The position numbers and the translations under genes were made by a program. A DNA stretch of 64,000 nucleotides, from contig CAMCDS010000008.1 of NCBI GenBank assembly GCA_945873625.1, forward strand, positions 1 through 64,000, given 5' to 3'. This DNA is from an uncultured Porphyromonadaceae bacterium. GTDB taxonomy: Bacteria > Bacteroidota > Bacteroidia > Bacteroidales > Muribaculaceae. Every line of letters starts with the position of its first letter. Positions within the stretch are counted from its first letter, which is position 1. Positions 2,226 to 60,734 of this stretch are shown here, piece by piece. The notes under the pieces are model-generated. The model was not told where the DNA came from, ran no database searches, and saw only the letters and a program-made list of their open reading frames with translations.

Positions 2226-2277
2226 CGTAAATAGCCGGCCTTGCTGACATGAATGTCAGCAAGGCCGGCTATTTACG
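2226..2277. terminator. 24-bp perfect palindrome, bidirectional terminator
   Basis: The two 24-base arms are exactly complementary around a TGAA loop. The element sits between the convergent metal ATPase and sod genes. It is best read as a shared transcription terminator or 3' RNA stabiliser; there is no long T run. Confidence 0.7.
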
Positions 2278-49093: not shown

Positions 49094-51901
49094 ATGGCAA
49101 ACTACGCTGCCGGACAAAGAATAACGGTAAGAGGAGAAGACTTCCTTATTACCAACATAGAGCCAGACGTCAATGGCAACTACCTGTTGCACGTCATCGG
49201 TATCAGTGAACTTGTAAAGAATCATCATTTCATCTTCGACACAAGCATTGATACCAGCATGGAAATTGTCAGCCCAATCAACACACAGTTGGTAGCCGAC
49301 AAGGATCCTCGTTGGCGCAAGACAAGACTTCTGGTTGAAACAGCCATCCGTAACAATGCCTTCTTCTCACAGAAGATTACCGTTGCACAAGGCGGAGCCT
49401 ACGATATTGCGGAATATCAGATGGAGCCAACGTTGAAGGCTTTGGAACTTCCGCGTCCCCGTTTGCTCATTGCCGATGGTGTCGGCTTGGGTAAGACCAT
49501 CGAGGTCGGTATTTTCCTGAGTGAGATGATTCGTCGCGGACGAGGCAAGCGTATCCTTGTCTGTGCGCTGAAGAGTATTCTTGCTCAGTTCCAGGAGGAA
49601 ATATGGAATCGCTTTGCCATTCCCCTTGTTCGTCTTGACAGCGTTGGCGTAGCACGCATCCAAAGTGAGATACCTCTCAACAAGAATCCTTTCGACTATT
49701 ACGACAAGACTATCATCAGTATCGATACACTGAAGAACAACGGTCGTTTCCGTGCATGGTTGGAGAAGACCCACTGGGACATCATCGTTATAGATGAGTG
49801 TCACAAGGTGTCCAACGAGGCAAGTCTCCGTGGTGACCTCGCTCAGTTCCTTGCCCAAAAGTGCGACTCGTTGATTCTTACCTCTGCCACTCCTCACAAT
49901 GGAAACGCCGAGTCATTTGCCAATCTCATGCGTATGCTCGACCCCATTTCCATCCCGAGAAATGGCGAGTACACACAAGATGACGTGAAGCCATATTATG
50001 TGCGTCGATTCAAAAAGGATATTGAGGACGAACACATTCGTGGACAGTTCCAGAATCGCAAAATCATTAGCATACCTGTCAACCTGCATCCCGAGGAAGA
50101 AAAATTTCTGAAGGTGCAGCACACACGCTTCCAGTCGGTCAACAAGGCAGATAGCTCAGACCCGCTCTTTGCTCTTTCTCTATTCAAAAGTTATCTTTCA
50201 TCTCCCTATGCCGCCCAAGCTTCACTTGAAGAGCGAAGCAAAAAAGATGACAGCGTCGAAGTGAAGGAACTGCTCGATTTGGTAAACACAAACATCTCTT
50301 TGGGAATAGATACCAGATATGTTGCCTTCAGAGACAAGTTGAAGGAAATCTGGAAGAAGAATCCTAAGGAGCGCATCGTAATCTTCACCGAGCGTATTGC
50401 CACAATGAAGTTCCTCGAAGAGAATATCAAAAAAGAGTTCAAATTGAACGAGGAACAGGTCAAGCGCTTTGACGGCTCTATGTCCGACACTGAGCAGGAA
50501 GAGATGGTGAGCGACTTCGCCAAGGAAGACAGCAAGATACGTGTGTTCATTTCCAGCGACTCCGGTTCTCAGGGTGTGAACCTCCATTACTTCTGTCATA
50601 TCATGTTCAACTATGATATCCCCTGGAGTCTTATCACCCTGGAGCAGCGCAATGGTCGTATCGACCGATATGGTCAGAGGCAGACACCTATTATATATTA
50701 TCTTGTAGCCCAGGGACAGGACGAAGACCTGCGCACCGACTTCCGCATCCTCGACAAGTTGAAGGACAAGGAGCAGGAGGTGCATGACGTGCTTGGCGAT
50801 GCCATGAGCGTGATGGAACTCTACAACAGCAAGAAGGAGGAAGATGAGGTTGCCAAGGCTCTCCAAACGGGCGATGACCATTATCTTGACCCGTCAGCAA
50901 CCCAGCGCCGCCGTCAGCGTGGCGGCTTCAAACGTCCTGATGTTGTGACTACGACACCTGCCAAGGAACATCTATCCGAGAAGATATTTGAGCCTAAGTT
51001 GTCTCTCTACAAGTCCGATGAAGATTTCTACAAGGACCTCTTCAACGAACTTGAAGCCAGCGAGTCAATACACCATGGTGATGTGCGCTGGCAGAATGGC
51101 ACTGTGCCATACGTGGAGGTGAAGAACAATGCAGAACTCAGTGACGTGTTGTTCGACATTCCGCGTGAGGCTATTCCTTCCGACAACATCTTCCGTCTGT
51201 GCATGGACAAGGCTACGCTCAACAAGTCAATCGCTGATTCACGCAAGAGCAAGAATGGCGACTGGAGCAAGTTCCTTCCGCTGTATGACCTACATCCTAT
51301 CATCCAATACCTGCTCACCAAGTTCACGGCATCCGTGCCTAAGAACCAGGCCTTCGTCGTCAAGGGCGAACAGATACCAAAGGGAATGAGTTACTACCTG
51401 TTCTATGGCAGTCATGCCAATGGACTCGGTCAGAATCTCGTCAGTAAGTTCTTTGTCGTACCTCTCGACAAGGAAGGAGCGCTGCGCAGCAAACCGCAGT
51501 CTCTCTTTGACTTCCTTGCCGAGTATCATGTTATGGAAGGATTCCTCCAAGGTGTACAGGACGAAGACGTAGCCTTGCTCCAGAATAATTTGAACAGTGC
51601 CGTCAACTTCGGTTCCGAACTCTACATGAAGGAAAAACAGTTCGACGTGGCGCTGAAGATGGAGATAGAACTCAATCAGTACAAGTCCAAACTGGAGAAA
51701 TGGGTGAACGATGGACAAGCCACCTTGTTCGATGGCCTGAACGAAAGTGAAGACATTCACGTTACCCGTCGCAACAAGGACAAAGAGATAGAAGAGATTC
51801 AGAAGATCAGCGACCAGTCGAGCCAGTTCTATCAGGATATGTTCTCGCTCGACAAGGCAGAGCCTTATATGCGTCTCTTGGCTGTCTTCTATAATTTCTA
51901 A
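49094..51901 (+). CDS. SNF2-family helicase/translocase (DrmD-like)
   Basis: This 935-residue protein has a full SF2/SNF2 motor: [18 protein letters not shown] (Walker A), [12 protein letters not shown] (motif II), [11 protein letters not shown] (III), [13 protein letters not shown] (IV), [15 protein letters not shown] (V) and [13 protein letters not shown] (VI). The C-terminal 300 residues are specific and end without a known nuclease motif. The overall form, with RapA-like motif VI and a following large adenine methylase, resembles the DrmD helicase of class 1 DISARM and helicases of related restriction systems. It probably moves on DNA as part of restriction. No core DISARM genes (drmA, drmB, drmC) are seen. 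Confidence 0.85.
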
Positions 51902-51924
51902 CCGATAAAAGTAAGCATAACGCT

Positions 51925-54900
51925 ATGGCTGACAATATAAAATATCGTTTCATACAGAATGTCGGTGACTATTTCCCTTCGGGATATTTCAGCGACGATT
52001 TTCTGGACAAGGTTCAGAAGTGTGCCGGCATATCCAATGATGAGATGAAGGAACTCTGCACTCCTTTCGTGCGTCTGCGCCAGGAGTACAACGACTACAA
52101 GAACTTCATTATCAACGACTCTCCGCGTCCGGAGGATGCCATCAAGAAGACTTATGACTTCCACACCAGCCTGCTCCGTATCCTTGGCTATGACACCGAT
52201 CATGCCTATCAGGAGCACTGCATCGTCAATGAGGACACCACGCCCATTGAGATGATTCCTGTACGCCACATCATCCGCCAGGGGCAGCAGACCAAGATGC
52301 TCATCATGGAGATGCAGAACCTCATTACCATTGATGACAAGGAACCCGCCGGCCTCTTCGAGCAGCAGTATGAGAGCGAGCCGAACACCAAGGAGCAGAA
52401 GTATTCTGCCCGCCAGTGGCGTTTTGTCTTCAATCTTGACACGGAGAAGTACAAGATTTCGCCAGCCATCATCAACAAGGCGATTACACATATCTTCCTT
52501 CTGCCAGAGGAGCGCCGTCCGCATTTCATCCTGATGCTGGCCGGCAACACCATATTCCTTTTCGACAAGGACAAGTGGGCTAAGGGCAGTTATCTGGAGT
52601 TCTCTCTTGACGAGCTCTTTGCTCAGGCCAGTCTGAGTGCTTTCCGCAACTACTATGCGCTCTTCCACATGCTCGTCAGCAAACAGACCCTTGCTGCCGA
52701 CGGTGAGATGGTGCTGATGGACAGCATCATAGAGGAGAGTTACAAGAATGCCTATGAGGTAACCAAGGACTTGAAGGAAGGTGTCATCCTTGCCGTGGAG
52801 ACGCTTGCCAACGAGGCTCTCTTCTGGTGGAAGCAGAACAACAACATCCCTGTCAGCGACTATACCGACGATACTTTTGAAGGACTTGTGAAGGATGACT
52901 GTCTGACTATCATCTACCGCTTGCTCTTTCTCTTCTACGCTGAAAGTCGTGATGAACTCGAAATCCTTCCTGTGGACGATGAAGTATATAGGTTAGGCTA
53001 TTCGCTGGAGTCTCTGCGCGACCTCGAAATGGTGCGTCTCAACTCGCAAGCCAGTCGTGAAGGCTATTTCTTCGACGATAGCATCCACCATCTCTTCCAC
53101 CTGCTTTCTGATGGTCATAATGCCACAATAGAAAGTGGATATATCAAGAGTTTTCGTGTCCGTCCTATCGACTCACCGCTCTTCAATGACAAGAATCTCC
53201 ACTATCTTGGTGACGTGAGAATCCGCAACATCAAGTGGCAGGAGATTATCAAGGCTTTGTCTCTGTCAAAGAAGAAGAACTACTGCGGACGAATCAGCTA
53301 TGCCAACTTGGGAGTCAACCAGTTGGGCAGTGTCTATGAGAGTCTGCTTGCCTTCCGTGGCTTCTATGCCGAGGAAGACTACATAGAGGTGCATAAGGCC
53401 AATGAACCTCAGGACGGTACGTTCCTCGTGCCATACAGCCGCATGGGTGATTTTGACATCAGCGAAGTGCTCACCAATCAAGAGACAGGTGAGCCTATCA
53501 TCTTGCCTAAGGGTACTTTCGTATATCGTCTGAACGGACGCGACCGACAGAAGTCAGCCAGTTATTATACTCCCGAAGTGCTGACGCGCAGCACAGTGAA
53601 ATACACCCTGAAATCTATCATTGACGAGGTGCGCAACAACAAGCGTAAGGCAACCGAACTGCTTGAACTGAAGATTTTGGAGCCTGCCATGGGTGCAGCT
53701 GCTTTCCAAAATGAGGTTATCAATCAGTTGGCGGAGGCATATCTTGCGGAGCAGCAGCGTCAGCAGCGTGAGAACGGGTTGCACAACTGGCGTATATCGC
53801 CAGACAGATATCGTGACGAGTTGCAGAAGGTTAAGGCTTATATTGCTACGCACAATGTATATGGCGTGGACCTGAATCCTACAGCCATCGAACTGGGAAA
53901 ACTGTCATTGTGGCTGAATGTCATCCACAAGGATATGGAAACGCCGTTCTTTGCCAACCGAATCTGCGTGGGCAACGCTGTCATTGGGGCATGGCTGAAA
54001 GTGTATGGCAAGAATGATTTCTATGGCATTACTGAGCGTTATGGTGCGAAGCTGAAACCCAACAAATGGTGGGAGAAGGCTCCTCACAAGGTGAAATTCT
54101 TCTCTAATCGCGTCAATCGCTCCGTCAATGAGATATATCATTTCCTGCTTCCTGATGCCAACATGCTTGGAGTGCGCAGCATCAAGGAGCAGAAGAAGGC
54201 GCATCCTGCAGAGGATAGACGTATGGCTGGAATCCTCAAAGACTGGACTGCGCCAATAGGTGCTTATGAGTTCCAGACCCTTCTACGTCTGTCGGCAAAG
54301 ATAGATATTTTGCTGAAGGATTACTTCACGGACCAGATTTCCATAGAGAAATATACCAACAACCGCCGTGAGATATGGGATGGCATTGACCACTCTGCCA
54401 CCGACTCTCTGTTCAAAAACGAGGAGCAAGCGGAGTCATACGCTCGCAAGCAGGCACTTTTCGATACACGCTACGGACACAACAATGCCTATCGCAAGCT
54501 CAAGCTGGCGATGGACTATTGGTGCTCGCTCTGGTTCTGGGAATACAAGAATGCTGACAGTCTGCCTACCCGTCAGGAGTATTGGGCAGACATCGAGGCG
54601 CTCCTTGATGTGGATAATGACAAGCTTGACAATCGCACTCGCCAGGCTCTTGAACGTGCCGGTAGGGTATCTGAGGAAAATCCCGAATTTACCCGTCTCA
54701 GTGAAGATGAGTCGCAGATTGTCGCAAAGACACAGGAAGAATTGCTTACCGCTGCTCATGGCATGACCTCGCTCTTCTCTGACGACGACCCTCTTCGCCT
54801 GAAGATTGTCTGCCGACTGTCAGAGCGTTACCGCTTCTTCCACCCTATGCTGGAGTTCATTGAGGTGTTCTGGCTAAGGGATGGATTTGATATTATATGC

Positions 54901-56859
54901 GGTAATCCGCCGTGGTTGAAGTTAGAGTTTGATGAGCAAGGTATTATTTCGGAAAAATATCCGGAAATAGCAATACGCAATGTTAGTGCTCCGCAGGCAC
55001 GCAACATGCGTGATTCATTTTTCGCTTCTTCTCCGCTTTTGCAACAATTATATCGGGATGAAGAATTGGAGAATGCTGGAACTGCTGTATTTCTGAATGC
55101 AAAGTGTAACTATCCTTTGCTCGAAGGACAGCAAACAAATCTCTATAAATGCATCCTTGAGAATGGTTTTTCTCTGCTTTCTGATAATGGATTTATGGGA
55201 TTATTGCATCCTGAAGGTGTTTATGATGATCCAAAGGGACAAATCTTGAGAAAGGAAATATACCGTCGATTGATATACCACTATCAATATCAGAACACAT
55301 TGAAGCTATTTACCGAAATATTACATTGGACAATGTATAGTTCAAACATCTATGGACGTAAAAAAGATAATATAGACTTTGTAAGTATAAGTAATCTATA
55401 TCATCCAAATACGATTGATGTATGTTATGTACACACAGGTAATGGGCCATGTGGAGGAATGAAAGATGAGAATGGAAATTGGAATACAGCTGGTCATCAC
55501 GACCGAATAGTACATATTACGGAAAAAGAATTGAAAGTGATGGCTGACACTTTTGAACAAGGTGCTGACCCTCAATCTGCAAAATTGGTAAGCATTCATG
55601 CAAAGCAAATCATGAATGTATTGGAAGCGTTTGCAGATTTCCCTAAACATGTGGGGGATTTCAATGCGAACATTACAGTTGATTTAGATGAAACAGGAGC
55701 TGTAAATGTTGGAATAATAAAACGAGAAACTTATTATCCAATCGTTGATAATTACGAGATGGTGTATAATGGTCCTCAAATATATGTTGGTAATCCAAGT
55801 TATAAGACTCCAAGAACAGTATGCGTCAATAAGGCTGACTACGACACTATTGACTTGTCTTCCATTTCTAACGATTATATCGCAAGGTCTAACTATAGAC
55901 CTATTATGCCATTGTTCGAATACAAAAAACAAGTACAAGGTTTCTTTATTGGACAGAATGCAGACGGGGAGGATATATATGACGATTGGATTGACCACTA
56001 TAAGGTAGGATTCAGAAAAATGATAAGTCTTCCGAGCGAACGCTCGTTGATATGTGCTGTCCTGCCACGCAGGACAGCACATATCAACGGTGTCATCTCC
56101 TCTTCCTTCGTCAGAGGAGATGACACCGTGGATATGGCTGCGCTTTGTGCATCGATACCAATGGACTTCTTTATGAAGACTATAGCAGCGCAAAACCTGA
56201 CGTCTGTAAGAATGCAAGGTTTCCCTCTTGGTGTTGATGAAAAATACAATAATGCGATGCGTTCTCGCGCCCTTCTCCTCAACTGCCTCACCAAGCACTA
56301 TGCCGACCTGTGGAACGAATGTTGGCGAGAGGAATACAAGCAGGAAACGTGGTCGATTGCCGACCCAAGGTTGAAGCCTTTCGACACCTTGCACGAAGAC
56401 TGGGCATGGGACATCCCCTTGCGCAACTACTTCGAGCGTCGTCAGGCTTTGGTAGAGATTGACGTGATAGCCACCATGGCATTAGGCTTGAGCTTAGAAG
56501 ACTTGGATATGATTTACACCATCCAGTTCCCCGTGCTCCAGCAGAACGAGAACGACACATGGTATGACCAGAAGGGCAACATCGTCTTCACCTGCTCCAA
56601 GGGTCTCACCGGTGTAGGTCTCGACCGCAAGCGCAACAACAAGACCGGCATGCTCGGATGGGAAGACATCCGTGGTGAGCAGATAGATGAAAACACCTAT
56701 GCCGGCATCGCCCCAACCCATACCCACACCATCGACCCTGCCAAGAGCGAACTCTACGGCGGACAGCAAGTCACCTACCATGCCCCCTATACCCGCTGCG
56801 ACCGCATAGCCGACTACCGCCGCGCCTGGGCACATTTCGATAAAATATTCAACAAATAA
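51925..56859 (+). CDS. Giant N6-adenine DNA methyltransferase (DrmMI / Eco57I-like)
   Basis: This 1644-residue protein has an N-terminal region of about 550 residues of unknown fold. The methylase follows with SAM motif I ILEPAMGAAAFQNEVI (usually xPxxGSGAF), YGVDLNPTAIELGKLSLWLN, and the catalytic NPPW in DIICGNPPWLKLEFDEQ near residue 995. A target-recognition part (about 1000-1450) and a conserved C-terminus (DRIADYRRAWAHFDKIFNK) complete it. The recognition part is clearly AT-richer than its flanks, suggesting exchange. Bases 56033-56129 form three abutting perfect inverted repeats inside the frame. It starts 23 bp after the helicase. It may only modify DNA or may combine modification and cutting; a nuclease motif was not identified in the N-terminus. 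Confidence 0.85.
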   Translation: MADNIKYRFIQNVGDYFPSGYFSDDFLDKVQKCAGISNDEMKELCTPFVRLRQEYNDYKNFIINDSPRPEDAIKKTYDFHTSLLRILGYDTDHAYQEHCIVNEDTTPIEMIPVRHIIRQGQQTKMLIMEMQNLITIDDKEPAGLFEQQYESEPNTKEQKYSARQWRFVFNLDTEKYKISPAIINKAITHIFLLPEERRPHFILMLAGNTIFLFDKDKWAKGSYLEFSLDELFAQASLSAFRNYYALFHMLVSKQTLAADGEMVLMDSIIEESYKNAYEVTKDLKEGVILAVETLANEALFWWKQNNNIPVSDYTDDTFEGLVKDDCLTIIYRLLFLFYAESRDELEILPVDDEVYRLGYSLESLRDLEMVRLNSQASREGYFFDDSIHHLFHLLSDGHNATIESGYIKSFRVRPIDSPLFNDKNLHYLGDVRIRNIKWQEIIKALSLSKKKNYCGRISYANLGVNQLGSVYESLLAFRGFYAEEDYIEVHKANEPQDGTFLVPYSRMGDFDISEVLTNQETGEPIILPKGTFVYRLNGRDRQKSASYYTPEVLTRSTVKYTLKSIIDEVRNNKRKATELLELKILEPAMGAAAFQNEVINQLAEAYLAEQQRQQRENGLHNWRISPDRYRDELQKVKAYIATHNVYGVDLNPTAIELGKLSLWLNVIHKDMETPFFANRICVGNAVIGAWLKVYGKNDFYGITERYGAKLKPNKWWEKAPHKVKFFSNRVNRSVNEIYHFLLPDANMLGVRSIKEQKKAHPAEDRRMAGILKDWTAPIGAYEFQTLLRLSAKIDILLKDYFTDQISIEKYTNNRREIWDGIDHSATDSLFKNEEQAESYARKQALFDTRYGHNNAYRKLKLAMDYWCSLWFWEYKNADSLPTRQEYWADIEALLDVDNDKLDNRTRQALERAGRVSEENPEFTRLSEDESQIVAKTQEELLTAAHGMTSLFSDDDPLRLKIVCRLSERYRFFHPMLEFIEVFWLRDGFDIICGNPPWLKLEFDEQGIISEKYPEIAIRNVSAPQARNMRDSFFASSPLLQQLYRDEELENAGTAVFLNAKCNYPLLEGQQTNLYKCILENGFSLLSDNGFMGLLHPEGVYDDPKGQILRKEIYRRLIYHYQYQNTLKLFTEILHWTMYSSNIYGRKKDNIDFVSISNLYHPNTIDVCYVHTGNGPCGGMKDENGNWNTAGHHDRIVHITEKELKVMADTFEQGADPQSAKLVSIHAKQIMNVLEAFADFPKHVGDFNANITVDLDETGAVNVGIIKRETYYPIVDNYEMVYNGPQIYVGNPSYKTPRTVCVNKADYDTIDLSSISNDYIARSNYRPIMPLFEYKKQVQGFFIGQNADGEDIYDDWIDHYKVGFRKMISLPSERSLICAVLPRRTAHINGVISSSFVRGDDTVDMAALCASIPMDFFMKTIAAQNLTSVRMQGFPLGVDEKYNNAMRSRALLLNCLTKHYADLWNECWREEYKQETWSIADPRLKPFDTLHEDWAWDIPLRNYFERRQALVEIDVIATMALGLSLEDLDMIYTIQFPVLQQNENDTWYDQKGNIVFTCSKGLTGVGLDRKRNNKTGMLGWEDIRGEQIDENTYAGIAPTHTHTIDPAKSELYGGQQVTYHAPYTRCDRIADYRRAWAHFDKIFNK
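56033..56129. repeat. Three abutting perfect inverted repeats inside the methylase gene
   Basis: Hairpin 1: CGAGCG/CGCTCG, 56033-56046, two-base loop. Hairpin 2: 21-base perfect arms, 56045-56065 with 56069-56089, three-base loop. Hairpin 3: 17-base perfect arms, 56087-56103 with 56113-56129, nine-base loop. Consecutive hairpins overlap by two or three bases. The reading frame stays open and the encoded residues (ERSLICAVLPRRTAHINGV) still look family-like. Confidence 0.95.
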
Positions 56860-56874
56860 ACTTATATTTATATT

Positions 56875-58146
56875 ATGAAAATAAAATATATACAGATTAA
56901 GAATTTCCGTGGTATAAATGATTTTGAGATTGACAACTTGTCAAATCTTAACGTTGTAGCCGGAATAAATGGTGCAGGAAAGACTTCAATTCTCTTAGCC
57001 ATTCGAATTCTACTGTCGTGGCTTGTCGCAAGAATCAAGAATGCCAAAGGGCGTGGCATCAACATTCTTGATCGTGATATCACGAAAGGGCACGATTTTT
57101 GTTTCATGAAAATATGCCTCTACAATGGCATCAGTTGGCAGATATACAAAAAACGCTCAAGCATTAGAAGACCTATTGATGCAGATAATCTTTATAAGAC
57201 ATCAATGGTTGATATGATGAGTCTTGCAAACAGCATCGCAGAGGCCGTTGCTGCTCATCCTGAGACTACAGACATCCCTCTTATCGACGCTTATGGAGTT
57301 AATCGCGTTGTCGAAGACACACCTATGCGAGTACGCAAGACCCATAAACTCAGTTCTCTTGATGCGCTCTCTGTAAGCATGTCTAACAGTGTTAATTTCC
57401 ATGATTTCTTTATCTGGTTCAGGGAGATTGAAGATATTGAGAATGAGTCGATGCGCAATAGCGGAGTGCTTGTTCACGATAAGAAATTGGACGCTGTGCG
57501 CAATGCAATTACAGGCTTGCTGGATGGATACTCTGACCTAAAGGTGCAGCGCAATCCGCGTGCCTTCATTATAAACAAGAAAGGTCTGCAACTGAACTTC
57601 AACCAACTGTCAGATGGCGAAAAATCTTATATATCTTTAGTACTTGACATTGCAAGAAAGATGGCGATGACGCATCCGACACTGGATCACCCGCTTGATG
57701 GCGATGGTGTTGTGCTCATCGACGAAATAGACCTGCATCTTCATCCTACGTGGCAAAGAGATGTTATAGAACGCCTGCAAAAGATTTTCATCAATTGCCA
57801 ATTCTTGATAACAACTCATTCTCCACATATCGTTTCATGTGTAAATGTCGCTGACGGCGACAAATTGGTAACAATACTTAATGGAGTCGCCAGTGAAATT
57901 AGTAGCAATCAGTATGGCCTGGAAGCTGATCGTGTTCTGTCTGAAATATTCCAAATGGACAGCATGCGTAATCCTGTAGTACAATCTCATATTGATGTTC
58001 TTTGGACGTGTCTGAAACATCAGGATTATGAATCACAAAGATTTCTTGATGAGTATGATTGGCTGAAGAATCACGTAGATGCCAGCGATCCTGTTTATGC
58101 ACAGATCAAATTACAGATTGCACTTATTAAAAAAGGGTTAGCGTAA
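56875..58146 (+). CDS. AAA family ATPase, PtuA-like (Septu-type)
   Basis: This 423-residue ABC/SMC-like ATPase begins IKNFRGINDFEI and has AGINGAGKTSIL (Walker A), QLSDGEKSYISLVLDIA (signature), GVVLIDEIDLHLHPTWQ (Walker B) and TTHSPHIVSC (H-loop). It lacks a TOPRIM domain. It is followed by an HNH gene with a one-base overlap (TAATG), the gene pair of Septu (PtuA-PtuB) and retron-associated ATPase-HNH effectors. No retron reverse transcriptase is near. The likely role is phage sensing with activation of the HNH partner; this is inferred. Confidence 0.85.
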   Translation: MKIKYIQIKNFRGINDFEIDNLSNLNVVAGINGAGKTSILLAIRILLSWLVARIKNAKGRGINILDRDITKGHDFCFMKICLYNGISWQIYKKRSSIRRPIDADNLYKTSMVDMMSLANSIAEAVAAHPETTDIPLIDAYGVNRVVEDTPMRVRKTHKLSSLDALSVSMSNSVNFHDFFIWFREIEDIENESMRNSGVLVHDKKLDAVRNAITGLLDGYSDLKVQRNPRAFIINKKGLQLNFNQLSDGEKSYISLVLDIARKMAMTHPTLDHPLDGDGVVLIDEIDLHLHPTWQRDVIERLQKIFINCQFLITTHSPHIVSCVNVADGDKLVTILNGVASEISSNQYGLEADRVLSEIFQMDSMRNPVVQSHIDVLWTCLKHQDYESQRFLDEYDWLKNHVDASDPVYAQIKLQIALIKKGLA

Positions 58147-58781
58147 TGATACACATAGTTAAAGGTGCGCCATTAGGTGACTTTACAGATTTCGTCCAGA
58201 ACGAACATCCTACCAATTGGGATGATATTCATCATTCCAAACGTCATCCTGGCCTCGGCAAAAAATGTCGGGAGCACATACTGCTCAATGAACAAAATGT
58301 GCTTGGCGGATATACTGAACGTCCGCTATGGAACACACAAACGGATTTGCACATTGACCACTTTAAGAAAAAGGGTATGAACTGGCCACAAGATGTCACC
58401 TGGGAGTGGGATAACTTCATCGTCGAAGACCGTAATCCAAATTATGGAGCTTGTTATAAGGACACTCACACTTCGGACATGGCAGACTATGATCTTCTAC
58501 TTAATCCTGTATCTGAACACCCTGAGCGACTGATGACCTATCTGCCCGACGGACAAATCATGGCAAGGACAGATATTGACAAGCAGGATTCCAAGCGTGC
58601 AACATTCACAATTGAGCGTTTCAACCTTGGGCATGAAAGTCTTAGGCAGATGAGATATGAAATCATGAAACAGATAGAATCGTACAATCAACTGACAGAC
58701 GATGAAATACGAGTTGCGCTTGAAAGCCAAGGATTTCCTTCTGTTGTTGAGTGGGCATTGCAGGTAAGAGCGATTTTGTGA
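58146..58781 (+). CDS. HNH-family nuclease, PtuB-like, without the usual cysteines
   Basis: This 211-residue protein is in the position and has the outline of PtuB (TIGR02646-type HNH). HHSKRHPGLGKKCREHILLN occurs near residue 30, the core DLHIDHFKKKGMNWP near 65, and WEWDNFIVEDRNPNYGACYKD after it. The HNH core histidines and Asn are visible. The CxYCE motif that normally precedes the core reads GGYTE, and the later Cys-x-x-Cys is reduced to NYGACYKD, so zinc-knuckle ligands are missing. A related subfamily without zinc is more likely than a dead protein. It overlaps the ATPase stop by one base. Confidence 0.75.
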   Translation: MIHIVKGAPLGDFTDFVQNEHPTNWDDIHHSKRHPGLGKKCREHILLNEQNVLGGYTERPLWNTQTDLHIDHFKKKGMNWPQDVTWEWDNFIVEDRNPNYGACYKDTHTSDMADYDLLLNPVSEHPERLMTYLPDGQIMARTDIDKQDSKRATFTIERFNLGHESLRQMRYEIMKQIESYNQLTDDEIRVALESQGFPSVVEWALQVRAIL

Positions 58782-58857
58782 GGAAAATGATGACTACAAC
58801 CGCATCGACGACTACCGCCGCGCCTGGGCACACTTTGGTAAGATACTGAACATGTAA
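58782..58857 (+). pseudogene. Duplicated 3' end of the adenine methylase gene
   Basis: Directly after the HNH stop, an open fragment encodes DYNRIDDYRRAWAHFGKILNM and a TAA. It matches the methylase C-terminus DRIADYRRAWAHFDKIFNK at 56798-56859 over about 60 bases with a 23-base identical block. The following spacer (ATATTTATAT before ATGAAA) also resembles the spacer between the methylase and the PtuA-like gene. It is a left-over tail, 11 bp before the OLD gene, and is too short to be a gene. Confidence 0.9.
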
Positions 58858-58868
58858 GAAATATTTAT

Positions 58869-60734
58869 ATGAAACTAACAAGATATAAAGTAACAAATTT
58901 CCGTTCAGTTAAAGATTCTGGATGGATTAATTGCAACGATGTGACAACATTAGTCGGCATAAATGAAGCCGGCAAATCTAATCTTCTTCTTGCTTTATGG
59001 AAATTAAATCCGGCAAGTGGCGGAGACATCGACATTTTGCACGATATGCCAGTTGACAAATTGGCTGAAATGCGCAATCATACTTCAGAAACGACCTTTA
59101 TTGAAGCGGAATTTTCAATTACTGAAGAAACGAGAACAGTTATTGGAGAAGAAGTTGGTTGCAACATGTCTGATGTTTCGAAGGTTTCCGTGTCACGTTA
59201 CTATGATGGCAGACACGATGTTGACCTTCATGGGATTGTTCCACAGACCACACTTCAGGAAACAATCAAGGAAAAAACTCCAGAAGGTGATGACAAGGAG
59301 AAGACCGTGTCTAAAGAATACCTAAAGGAGGATTTAGATAATGCCATTATTTCACACTTACCAAAATTCGTATACTACTCGAATTATGGTAATTTATCGA
59401 CTCGTATATATTTGCCGAATGTCATGAAGTGGCTTAATGGTGAAGCCATTCCTGGTATTGATATAAACGAGGATCAGGTTCGGACACTCCGCGTCCTTTT
59501 CAGTTTTGTAAATCTTCAACCTCAGGAAATACTAAATCTAGGAAAGGATACAACAGCCGAAGTCCGTAGAAATGGTCGCACACCAACACAAAACGATATT
59601 GACAAGACTGATGCGGACAAAGAGAAGAGGAGTATTCTTCTTCAATCTGCATCGACTAGACTAACAAAAGAATTTAAAGACTGGTGGAATCAGGGAGAAT
59701 ACAAATTTAGATTTGATGCCGATGGCGACTACTTTAGAATTTGGGTGTCAGATTCAAAGAGACCAGCAGAAGTTAGCTTGGAACTGAGAAGTACTGGGTT
59801 GCAGTGGTTCTTGAGTTTCTATTTGATTTTTTTAGTCGAAAGTCAAGAAAATCATAAAAATGCGATTCTGCTTCTTGACGAAGCAGGTTTGACTTTGCAT
59901 CCATTAGCACAGAAGGACTTATCTAAGTTCTTCAATAAGTTGTCTCTTACGAACCAAATTATTAATACAACTCACTCCCCATTTATCGTAGATACAAACA
60001 ATATTGATAGATGTAAAGTCGTATACATGGACTCTGATGGTTTAACTGTAGCCTCAGATGATCTTCGTCAAAGCAATGATAAGCTTAACGAAAAATCCAT
60101 ATATGCTGTTCATGCTGCTCTTGGACTCAGCGTATCAGATATTCTTCTCCAAGGATGCAAGCCAGTTATTGTTGAAGGTCCTTCTGATCAGATATATCTC
60201 AATACGATAAAACAGATACTTATAGGAAACAATATTTTTTCCCCGAAAGATGAAATCGTATTTCTTCCAAGTGGCGGAGTTAAGGGAATACCTGGCGTTG
60301 TTAGCATCATATCTGGCAAGAATGGTGAAACTCCTATAGTAATTGTCGACTCAGACAAAAGTGGCCTTGACGCAAAGAAAAAGTTACTCAGCGGTGACTT
60401 GTATTCTGGCGATAATGGCAAAATCTTGGAGATTAAAGATTACACAGGAATGGATAATTCCGAGGTCGAGGATTTCATCCCTGCGGATATTATCTGCAAG
60501 CAGATTTCTAAGATATTGCCTCACGATTTAGATGATGATTTCGAAGATGTATACACTGAAGGAGAACCTATTGTCCCTCAAATCGAAAAGTTCGCACACG
60601 ATTACAATGTTACCCTTTCCAAAGGTTGGAAAGTCGAACTGGCAAAAAAGGTTAAATCATCGATGTTGAAGAAGGTATTTTCAAAAGAAGATTGCAAGAA
60701 TTGGAAAAAACTCTTTGATAAATTCTGTAAGTAG
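58869..60734 (+). CDS. OLD-family ATPase-TOPRIM nuclease
   Basis: This 621-residue protein has an N-terminal ABC-type ATPase (VTNFRSVKDSGWI, VGINEAGKSNLLLALWKL, ELRSTGLQWFLSFYLIF, ILLLDEAGLTLHPLAQKDL, TTHSPFIVDTNN). A C-terminal TOPRIM domain follows with PVIVEGPSDQIYL, IVIVDSDKSGLDAKKKL and EVEDFIP, the acidic residues of OLD nucleases. GajA of Gabija and other OLD defence nucleases share this plan, but no GajB (UvrD-like) helicase follows. Its ATG lies 11 bp after the duplicated methylase tail, suggesting it originally followed the methylase directly. It ends in TAG, the only TAG stop among the genes seen. Confidence 0.9.
   Translation: MKLTRYKVTNFRSVKDSGWINCNDVTTLVGINEAGKSNLLLALWKLNPASGGDIDILHDMPVDKLAEMRNHTSETTFIEAEFSITEETRTVIGEEVGCNMSDVSKVSVSRYYDGRHDVDLHGIVPQTTLQETIKEKTPEGDDKEKTVSKEYLKEDLDNAIISHLPKFVYYSNYGNLSTRIYLPNVMKWLNGEAIPGIDINEDQVRTLRVLFSFVNLQPQEILNLGKDTTAEVRRNGRTPTQNDIDKTDADKEKRSILLQSASTRLTKEFKDWWNQGEYKFRFDADGDYFRIWVSDSKRPAEVSLELRSTGLQWFLSFYLIFLVESQENHKNAILLLDEAGLTLHPLAQKDLSKFFNKLSLTNQIINTTHSPFIVDTNNIDRCKVVYMDSDGLTVASDDLRQSNDKLNEKSIYAVHAALGLSVSDILLQGCKPVIVEGPSDQIYLNTIKQILIGNNIFSPKDEIVFLPSGGVKGIPGVVSIISGKNGETPIVIVDSDKSGLDAKKKLLSGDLYSGDNGKILEIKDYTGMDNSEVEDFIPADIICKQISKILPHDLDDDFEDVYTEGEPIVPQIEKFAHDYNVTLSKGWKVELAKKVKSSMLKKVFSKEDCKNWKKLFDKFCK

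Follow-up and report, generated by a model that had tools for sequence, protein, structure and literature searches.

How does a protein-coding gene come to hold long, perfect palindromes, and what keeps them perfect? Bacterial genes rarely contain such palindromes, and we know of no bacterial precedent of the kind described here. The question is raised by the window (the whole 64,000-nucleotide stretch analysed), in which a large phage-defence methylase gene carries consecutive hairpins within its coding sequence.

Perfect hairpins in the methylase gene

The host gene, its recognition region and the palindromic elements are as follows.

51925..56859, + strand: Type IIG or DrmMI-like N6-adenine methylase gene (1644 aa), host of the hairpins; open reading frame with matches to PADLOC REase_MTase_IIG (E=0), DrmMI (8.7e-58) and Pfam Eco57I.
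55012..56334, + strand: approximate target-recognition region (codons about 1030-1470); variable between alleles, with a drop in identity relative to the backbone and allele swap in E. coli homologues.
about 56036..56049, + strand: 6-bp hairpin CGAGCG-AA-CGCTCG; ordinary and unconserved.
56045..56065, + strand: left arm of hairpin A, 21 nt; encodes S-L-I-C-A-V-L-P; kept in L034 and L125.
56069..56089, + strand: right arm of hairpin A, 21 nt; encodes R-R-T-A-H-I-N; four pairs with two-sided changes, none with one-sided changes.
56080..56085, + strand: CATATC, within the right arm of A, with GATATG as its alternative partner (pairing search); same mismatch in L034 and L125.
56087..56103, + strand: left arm of hairpin B, 17 nt; encodes N-G-V-I-S-S.
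56113..56129, + strand: right arm of hairpin B, 17 nt; encodes R-G-D-D-T-V, which deviates from the family consensus (alignment, per-position scores).
56131..56136, + strand: GATATG, the 3' partner in the outer extension of B (pairing search).

The methylase matches the PADLOC profile PDLC03614 over residues 8-1643, that is, over the whole protein. The DrmMI profile is a weaker match than the Type IIG restriction-methylase profile, and no solved relative was found by sequence. A DrmD-like SNF2 helicase gene precedes the methylase gene, which is followed by a Septu pair (ptuA/ptuB-like) and a gene for an OLD-like ATPase-nuclease (window 49094-60734). In L034, a Bacteroidales metagenome-assembled genome from horse faeces, a 376-aa protein, DUF262-like by eye, and an AAA-like ATPase are encoded 3' of the methylase; in a distant genus and on E. 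coli plasmids, this place is taken by a large helicase-like protein. The defence genes downstream of the methylase look interchangeable.

The original prediction, that three consecutive hairpins with perfect arms lie in an intact frame and overlap by 2-3 bases, is correct, and the case is stronger than first claimed. Hairpin A has 21 bp without a mismatch around a 3-nt loop, CAC, and hairpin B has 17 bp, also without a mismatch, around a 9-nt loop, TCCTTCGTC. The 6-bp hairpin is real too; it differs between species and is probably incidental. A and B overlap by 3 nt, the reading frame runs uninterrupted between 51925 and 56859, and the protein alignment is intact. As in coding palindromes maintained by template switching, the inverted repeats are perfect and both of their arms are translated. 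Past one A.G mismatch, B gains six outer pairs (56080-56085 with 56131-56136), so that the right arm of A has two possible partners: CATATCAACG can pair upstream, in A, or downstream, in the B extension.

A 21-bp palindrome had been held to be unexpected by chance, and 150 synonymous codon permutations of the methylase gene bear this out, since their longest tight hairpins span 6-10 bp as against the 21 bp observed. Our survey of about 530 kb combined the window with 400 kb from its genome and with parts of the DNA of four relatives. Among ORFs of at least 200 codons in this set, no other perfect hairpin of at least 17 bp was found, except for the homologous hairpins in relatives; two further ones lie in shorter, doubtful ORFs. 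Other palindromes noted were an intergenic perfect 25-bp hairpin with a 2-nt loop (window 2226-2277), probably a bidirectional terminator; a perfect 24-bp inverted repeat with a 34-nt loop (window 11436-11517); and a perfect 29-bp hairpin with a 3-nt loop (L037:1229-1289), apparently just 3' of a homologous methylase gene.

Matched changes in two lineages

Comparison with relatives, which had been proposed as a check, found A and B conserved with the same geometry in independent genomes, and the 6-bp hairpin not conserved. Both A and B recur in L034, with matched changes from C-G to T-A in A and from C-G to A-T in B. They are also present in G1587, a member of the same family in another genus, with arms and loops of unchanged length and another five matched changes. 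Among the window, L034 and G1587, seven pairs have changed on both sides and none on one side only, and hairpin B of L034 has become one pair shorter at its inner end; controls slid out of the true register gave at most one two-sided change. DNA identity in the rest of the gene is 65-73% among the three, which also share the A.G mismatch in the B extension. Third codon positions in the hairpins are identical at 86% (window-L034) and 69% (window-G1587), compared with 47% and 44%, respectively, outside them. Since third-position conservation is equally high at codons about 1580-1610 (56662-56754), where there is no hairpin, our argument rests on co-change and not on conservation alone.

The window genome consists of 52 contigs and L034 is a metagenome-assembled genome, and such data are known for chimaeras. 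An assembly or amplification artefact, such as an inverted chimaera, is nevertheless extremely improbable, given the same stems with matched changes in independent genomes and the intact frame and protein alignment; the assembly error that the original prediction had allowed for did not materialise.

A different stem occupies the same strip in a distant class. Hairpin C, present in G394, G418 and G547, which belong to one genus, has a stem of 21-23 bp and a 4-nt loop (sequence CTCCCACCGTCANCAGG-G/C-CAT); it shares the 30-codon strip with A and B but is centred elsewhere. Four of its pairs have changed on both sides, and G356, a fourth species, carries an imperfect copy. Arms that co-change in this way, in C as in A and B, are what coding palindromes maintained by template switching show. 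A, B and C each have their own codon-phase register (assigned by hand for C), three in all, so no single codon bias accounts for the stems. In A, wobble positions face each other across the stem, so that synonymous changes could weaken its pairing. These sequences suggest a second, separate emergence of hairpins at this spot, in a distantly related group.

Matched stem changes are usually read as proof of RNA function. A selected RNA element, whose stable mRNA stems (possible RNase III substrates or ribosome pause sites) would restrain or time the synthesis of a hazardous restriction-methylation enzyme, with selection keeping the pairing, would explain the compensatory changes in A/B and C. 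It would also suit the predicted RNA energies, which in every hairpin-bearing gene lie between -41 and -71 kcal/mol (z between -7 and -11), the value for the window being -71 kcal/mol (z = -11), and the two alternative partners of CATATCAACG recall attenuators. RNA would, however, permit G:U pairs, and of the 177 pairs counted in nine stems, all but one (176) are Watson-Crick, with G:T absent, which argues mildly against such an element; nor is there any one-sided change in A/B. Furthermore, the stems vary in sequence, register and number from lineage to lineage, they are absent from most homologues, including some whose backbone is near-identical, and no Rfam family was matched at gathering score. 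Rfam returned only sub-gathering microRNA models, as any perfect hairpin would, and one weak snRNA match outside the hairpins. On balance, we regard a selected RNA element as unlikely.

The loops of hairpin C in G418 (GTGA) and G547 (TCAC) are exact reverse complements, and through this inversion H-V-N-G in G418 becomes H-S-H-A in G547. The comparison involves 4 nt only, with a chance of about 1 in 256 per pair over three pairs, and G418/G547 is the one pair that shows inversion; no loop inversion was found in A or B among the window, L034 and G1587. The replaced residues, and the confinement of the hairpins to the specificity region, would suit a mutational contingency site, that is, a palindrome favoured since template switching alters several recognition residues at once, including loop residues beside an invariant histidine, and thereby diversifies specificity. 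The arms themselves are, however, unusually conserved and the species are few, and we consider such a site highly improbable.

Recognition-domain alleles with and without hairpins

A and B occupy codons 1374-1402, inside the allele-variable region. In 34 of the 40 aligned homologues, the same, ungapped codons contain no long stem; this hairpin-free set includes E. coli, cyanobacterial and alphaproteobacterial plasmid copies. Because the 33-codon strip has no gaps across the 40 homologues, its length is the same as in those that are palindrome-free. Unpaired homologues, which the original prediction had regarded as a possible refutation, thus exist, but for A and B they show gain and loss, not error. 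One E. coli allele, from a plasmid homologue, contains a 12-bp perfect stem in the strip (L054:443-471, L092:244-272), which may be a matter of chance. Complementarity in the hairpin-free homologues is somewhat raised in register A (rank 4 of 95) and register B (rank 2 of 95) and takes only rank 21 of 107 in register C; the signal of a putative self-complementary seed is weak, and absent for C.

Over the backbone (residues 1-1030), identity to the window is 83% in Segatella baroniae, 82% in L034 and 67% in G1587. Over the recognition domain, both within the hairpin strip and outside it, the window, L034 and G1587 cluster, and Segatella stands apart (28-31% identity in the strip). From these identities by segment, on which the domain-exchange reading is based, the hairpins appear to belong to the recognition-domain allele and not to the gene backbone. 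The E. coli homologues seem to exchange recognition domains in the same manner: several alleles of the domain occur on a common backbone, and the alleles read differ over the region. DNA similar to the recognition region of the homologue was found in 522 of 5426 complete E. coli genomes, of which just 48 reach a query coverage of 80% or more. To our knowledge, recognition-domain exchange in restriction-modification genes is not known to involve perfect coding hairpins.

The position of the hairpins in an exchangeable domain, and their travel with it, would also be expected of a selected DNA element, namely a cruciform or a single-strand hairpin, placed where the recognition domain ends, that acts as a break or exchange site for domain swaps or to which one of the system's proteins binds. 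Strict Watson-Crick pairing suits a DNA structure, and hairpins recur at one site in two lineages. Yet E. coli homologues exchange recognition domains without any such hairpin, the three unrelated stem sequences and registers leave no common binding sequence, and the region has no second copy in the genome. We therefore think a selected DNA element quite unlikely. The original prediction had put forward an inversion site for swapping recognition domains; although the hairpins sit inside the recognition domain and travel along with it, that proposal finds no support, given the E. coli exchanges, the spacing of the arms, which are 3 and 9 nt apart, and the 401-bp region, which lacks a second genomic copy. 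The same loop lengths and the lack of an alternative copy speak against an invertible or phase-variable domain switch.

Two other origins were considered and rejected. A palindromic mobile element (Rickettsia type, REP or MITE) does not agree with the absence of extra residues (0 gaps in 40 homologues) and the single genomic locus. A viral or plasmid origin was dismissed as the hairpin DNA is unmatched in phage and plasmid collections; the exact hairpin patterns did not occur in viral contigs, and a protein query found no relative in the phage and plasmid collections.

Probable template switching and known coding palindromes

We favour the view that replication template switching created these coding palindromes in the methylase recognition domain and keeps them perfect, and we consider this probable. 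The sequences themselves show that the stems are perfect, that their arms change together, that two lineages carry different stems at the same site, that the hairpins accompany the domain and that one loop is exactly inverted. Template switching that perfected weaker palindromes had been among the causes first suggested, and it is the best-supported reading; what we infer is how the mutations came about, in which order, and that the hairpins need serve no function. A single template-switching event can generate a perfect stem; the process can also repair mismatches and turn loops around, and loop inversion has been described as its strongest support (PMC8794818). It homogenises repeat arms in yeast coding genes (PMC8604942), and Mikhailov et al. 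2019 proposed it for the coding palindromes of nematomorph mitochondria, where arm identity is all-or-none (PMC6649704). Four features of the methylase hairpins fit such a process: strict Watson-Crick pairing, the loop inversion, the family-foreign right arm of B and the raised complementarity in registers A and B.

The events could have run as follows. The conserved strip, ERTLIxAxxPPxxxHIxxVxSxxF, would be weakly self-complementary, and a stalled DNA end may fold back, or jump to the other strand. The reverse complement of a neighbouring stretch would then be copied in place, replacing codons in one step with the length unchanged; the right arm of B, R-G-D-D-T-V(-D-M), may be seen to resemble a copied antisense of A-H-I-N-G-V-I-S-S. 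After a tight perfect stem had formed, mutations in one arm would be erased or transferred to the other, so that the arms would co-evolve. Changes would survive only at positions where both arms tolerate them, which would account for the slow DNA divergence of the arms. Since deletion of the hairpin would break the protein, the hairpin would persist until the whole domain was swapped.

Some of the evidence counts against template switching. Given that no other long ORF in the roughly 530 kb holds a comparable hairpin, any general mutation process would have to be exceptionally active, or exceptionally well tolerated, at this one site. This rarity is the weak point, as a general process should leave more coding stems: either the strip is unusually tolerant, with both arms encoding acceptable residues, or the stems are useful. 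Because of it, we leave roughly one third of the probability to selection on an RNA or DNA element. In addition, both stems hold their length and loop size in three species despite 65-73% DNA identity, and the A.G mismatch beside B stays uncorrected in all three. A broader proposal, that palindromes in recognition domains are a selected device, recurrent at one site and perfect at the DNA level, which controls the gene or rewrites specificity residues via template switching, seems to us doubtful.

Among known systems, the nematomorph mitochondrial coding palindromes (PMC6649704) are similar in that perfect inverted repeats lie in functional genes, both arms encode aligned residues, stems overlap and have competing partners, stems are gained and lost, and identity is nearly all-or-none. 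They differ in being mitochondrial and in comprising more than 100 repeats over many genes, with arms of up to 142 bp, whereas here the stems are bacterial, occupy one site in one gene family, have arms of 17-23 bp, move with an exchangeable recognition domain and show explicit compensatory changes across species. Template switching in yeast coding genes (Abraham and Hazkani-Covo 2021, PMC8604942) and in RNA genes (PMC8794818) likewise involves arm homogenisation, spacer inversion and several adjacent amino-acid changes at once, but those cases concern short repeats and events that are recent, in strains or in RNA genes, in contrast to the long perfect stems and deep divergence in this defence gene. 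Rickettsia palindromic elements, as cited in PMC6649704, are also in-frame palindromes in protein genes; they are inserted and mobile, add residues and lose pairing over time, whereas the methylase stems stay paired, were not inserted and have no further copy. With the recombining recognition domains of restriction-modification genes (e.g. PMC3983042), the methylase gene shares the swapping of specificity regions among alleles.

The methylase hairpins would thus provide a tractable bacterial family in which stems differ at one site, co-change, lose perfection (G356) and move with the domain. They make it possible to test, in a clean natural setting, if template switching by itself can pass for structural selection, and if it supplies diversity to the specificity domains of defence enzymes. 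Taken together, the palindromes appear to work like coding palindromes kept by template switching, and what is new is that they occur in bacteria, are restricted to a recognition domain, recur at one site and travel with the domain.
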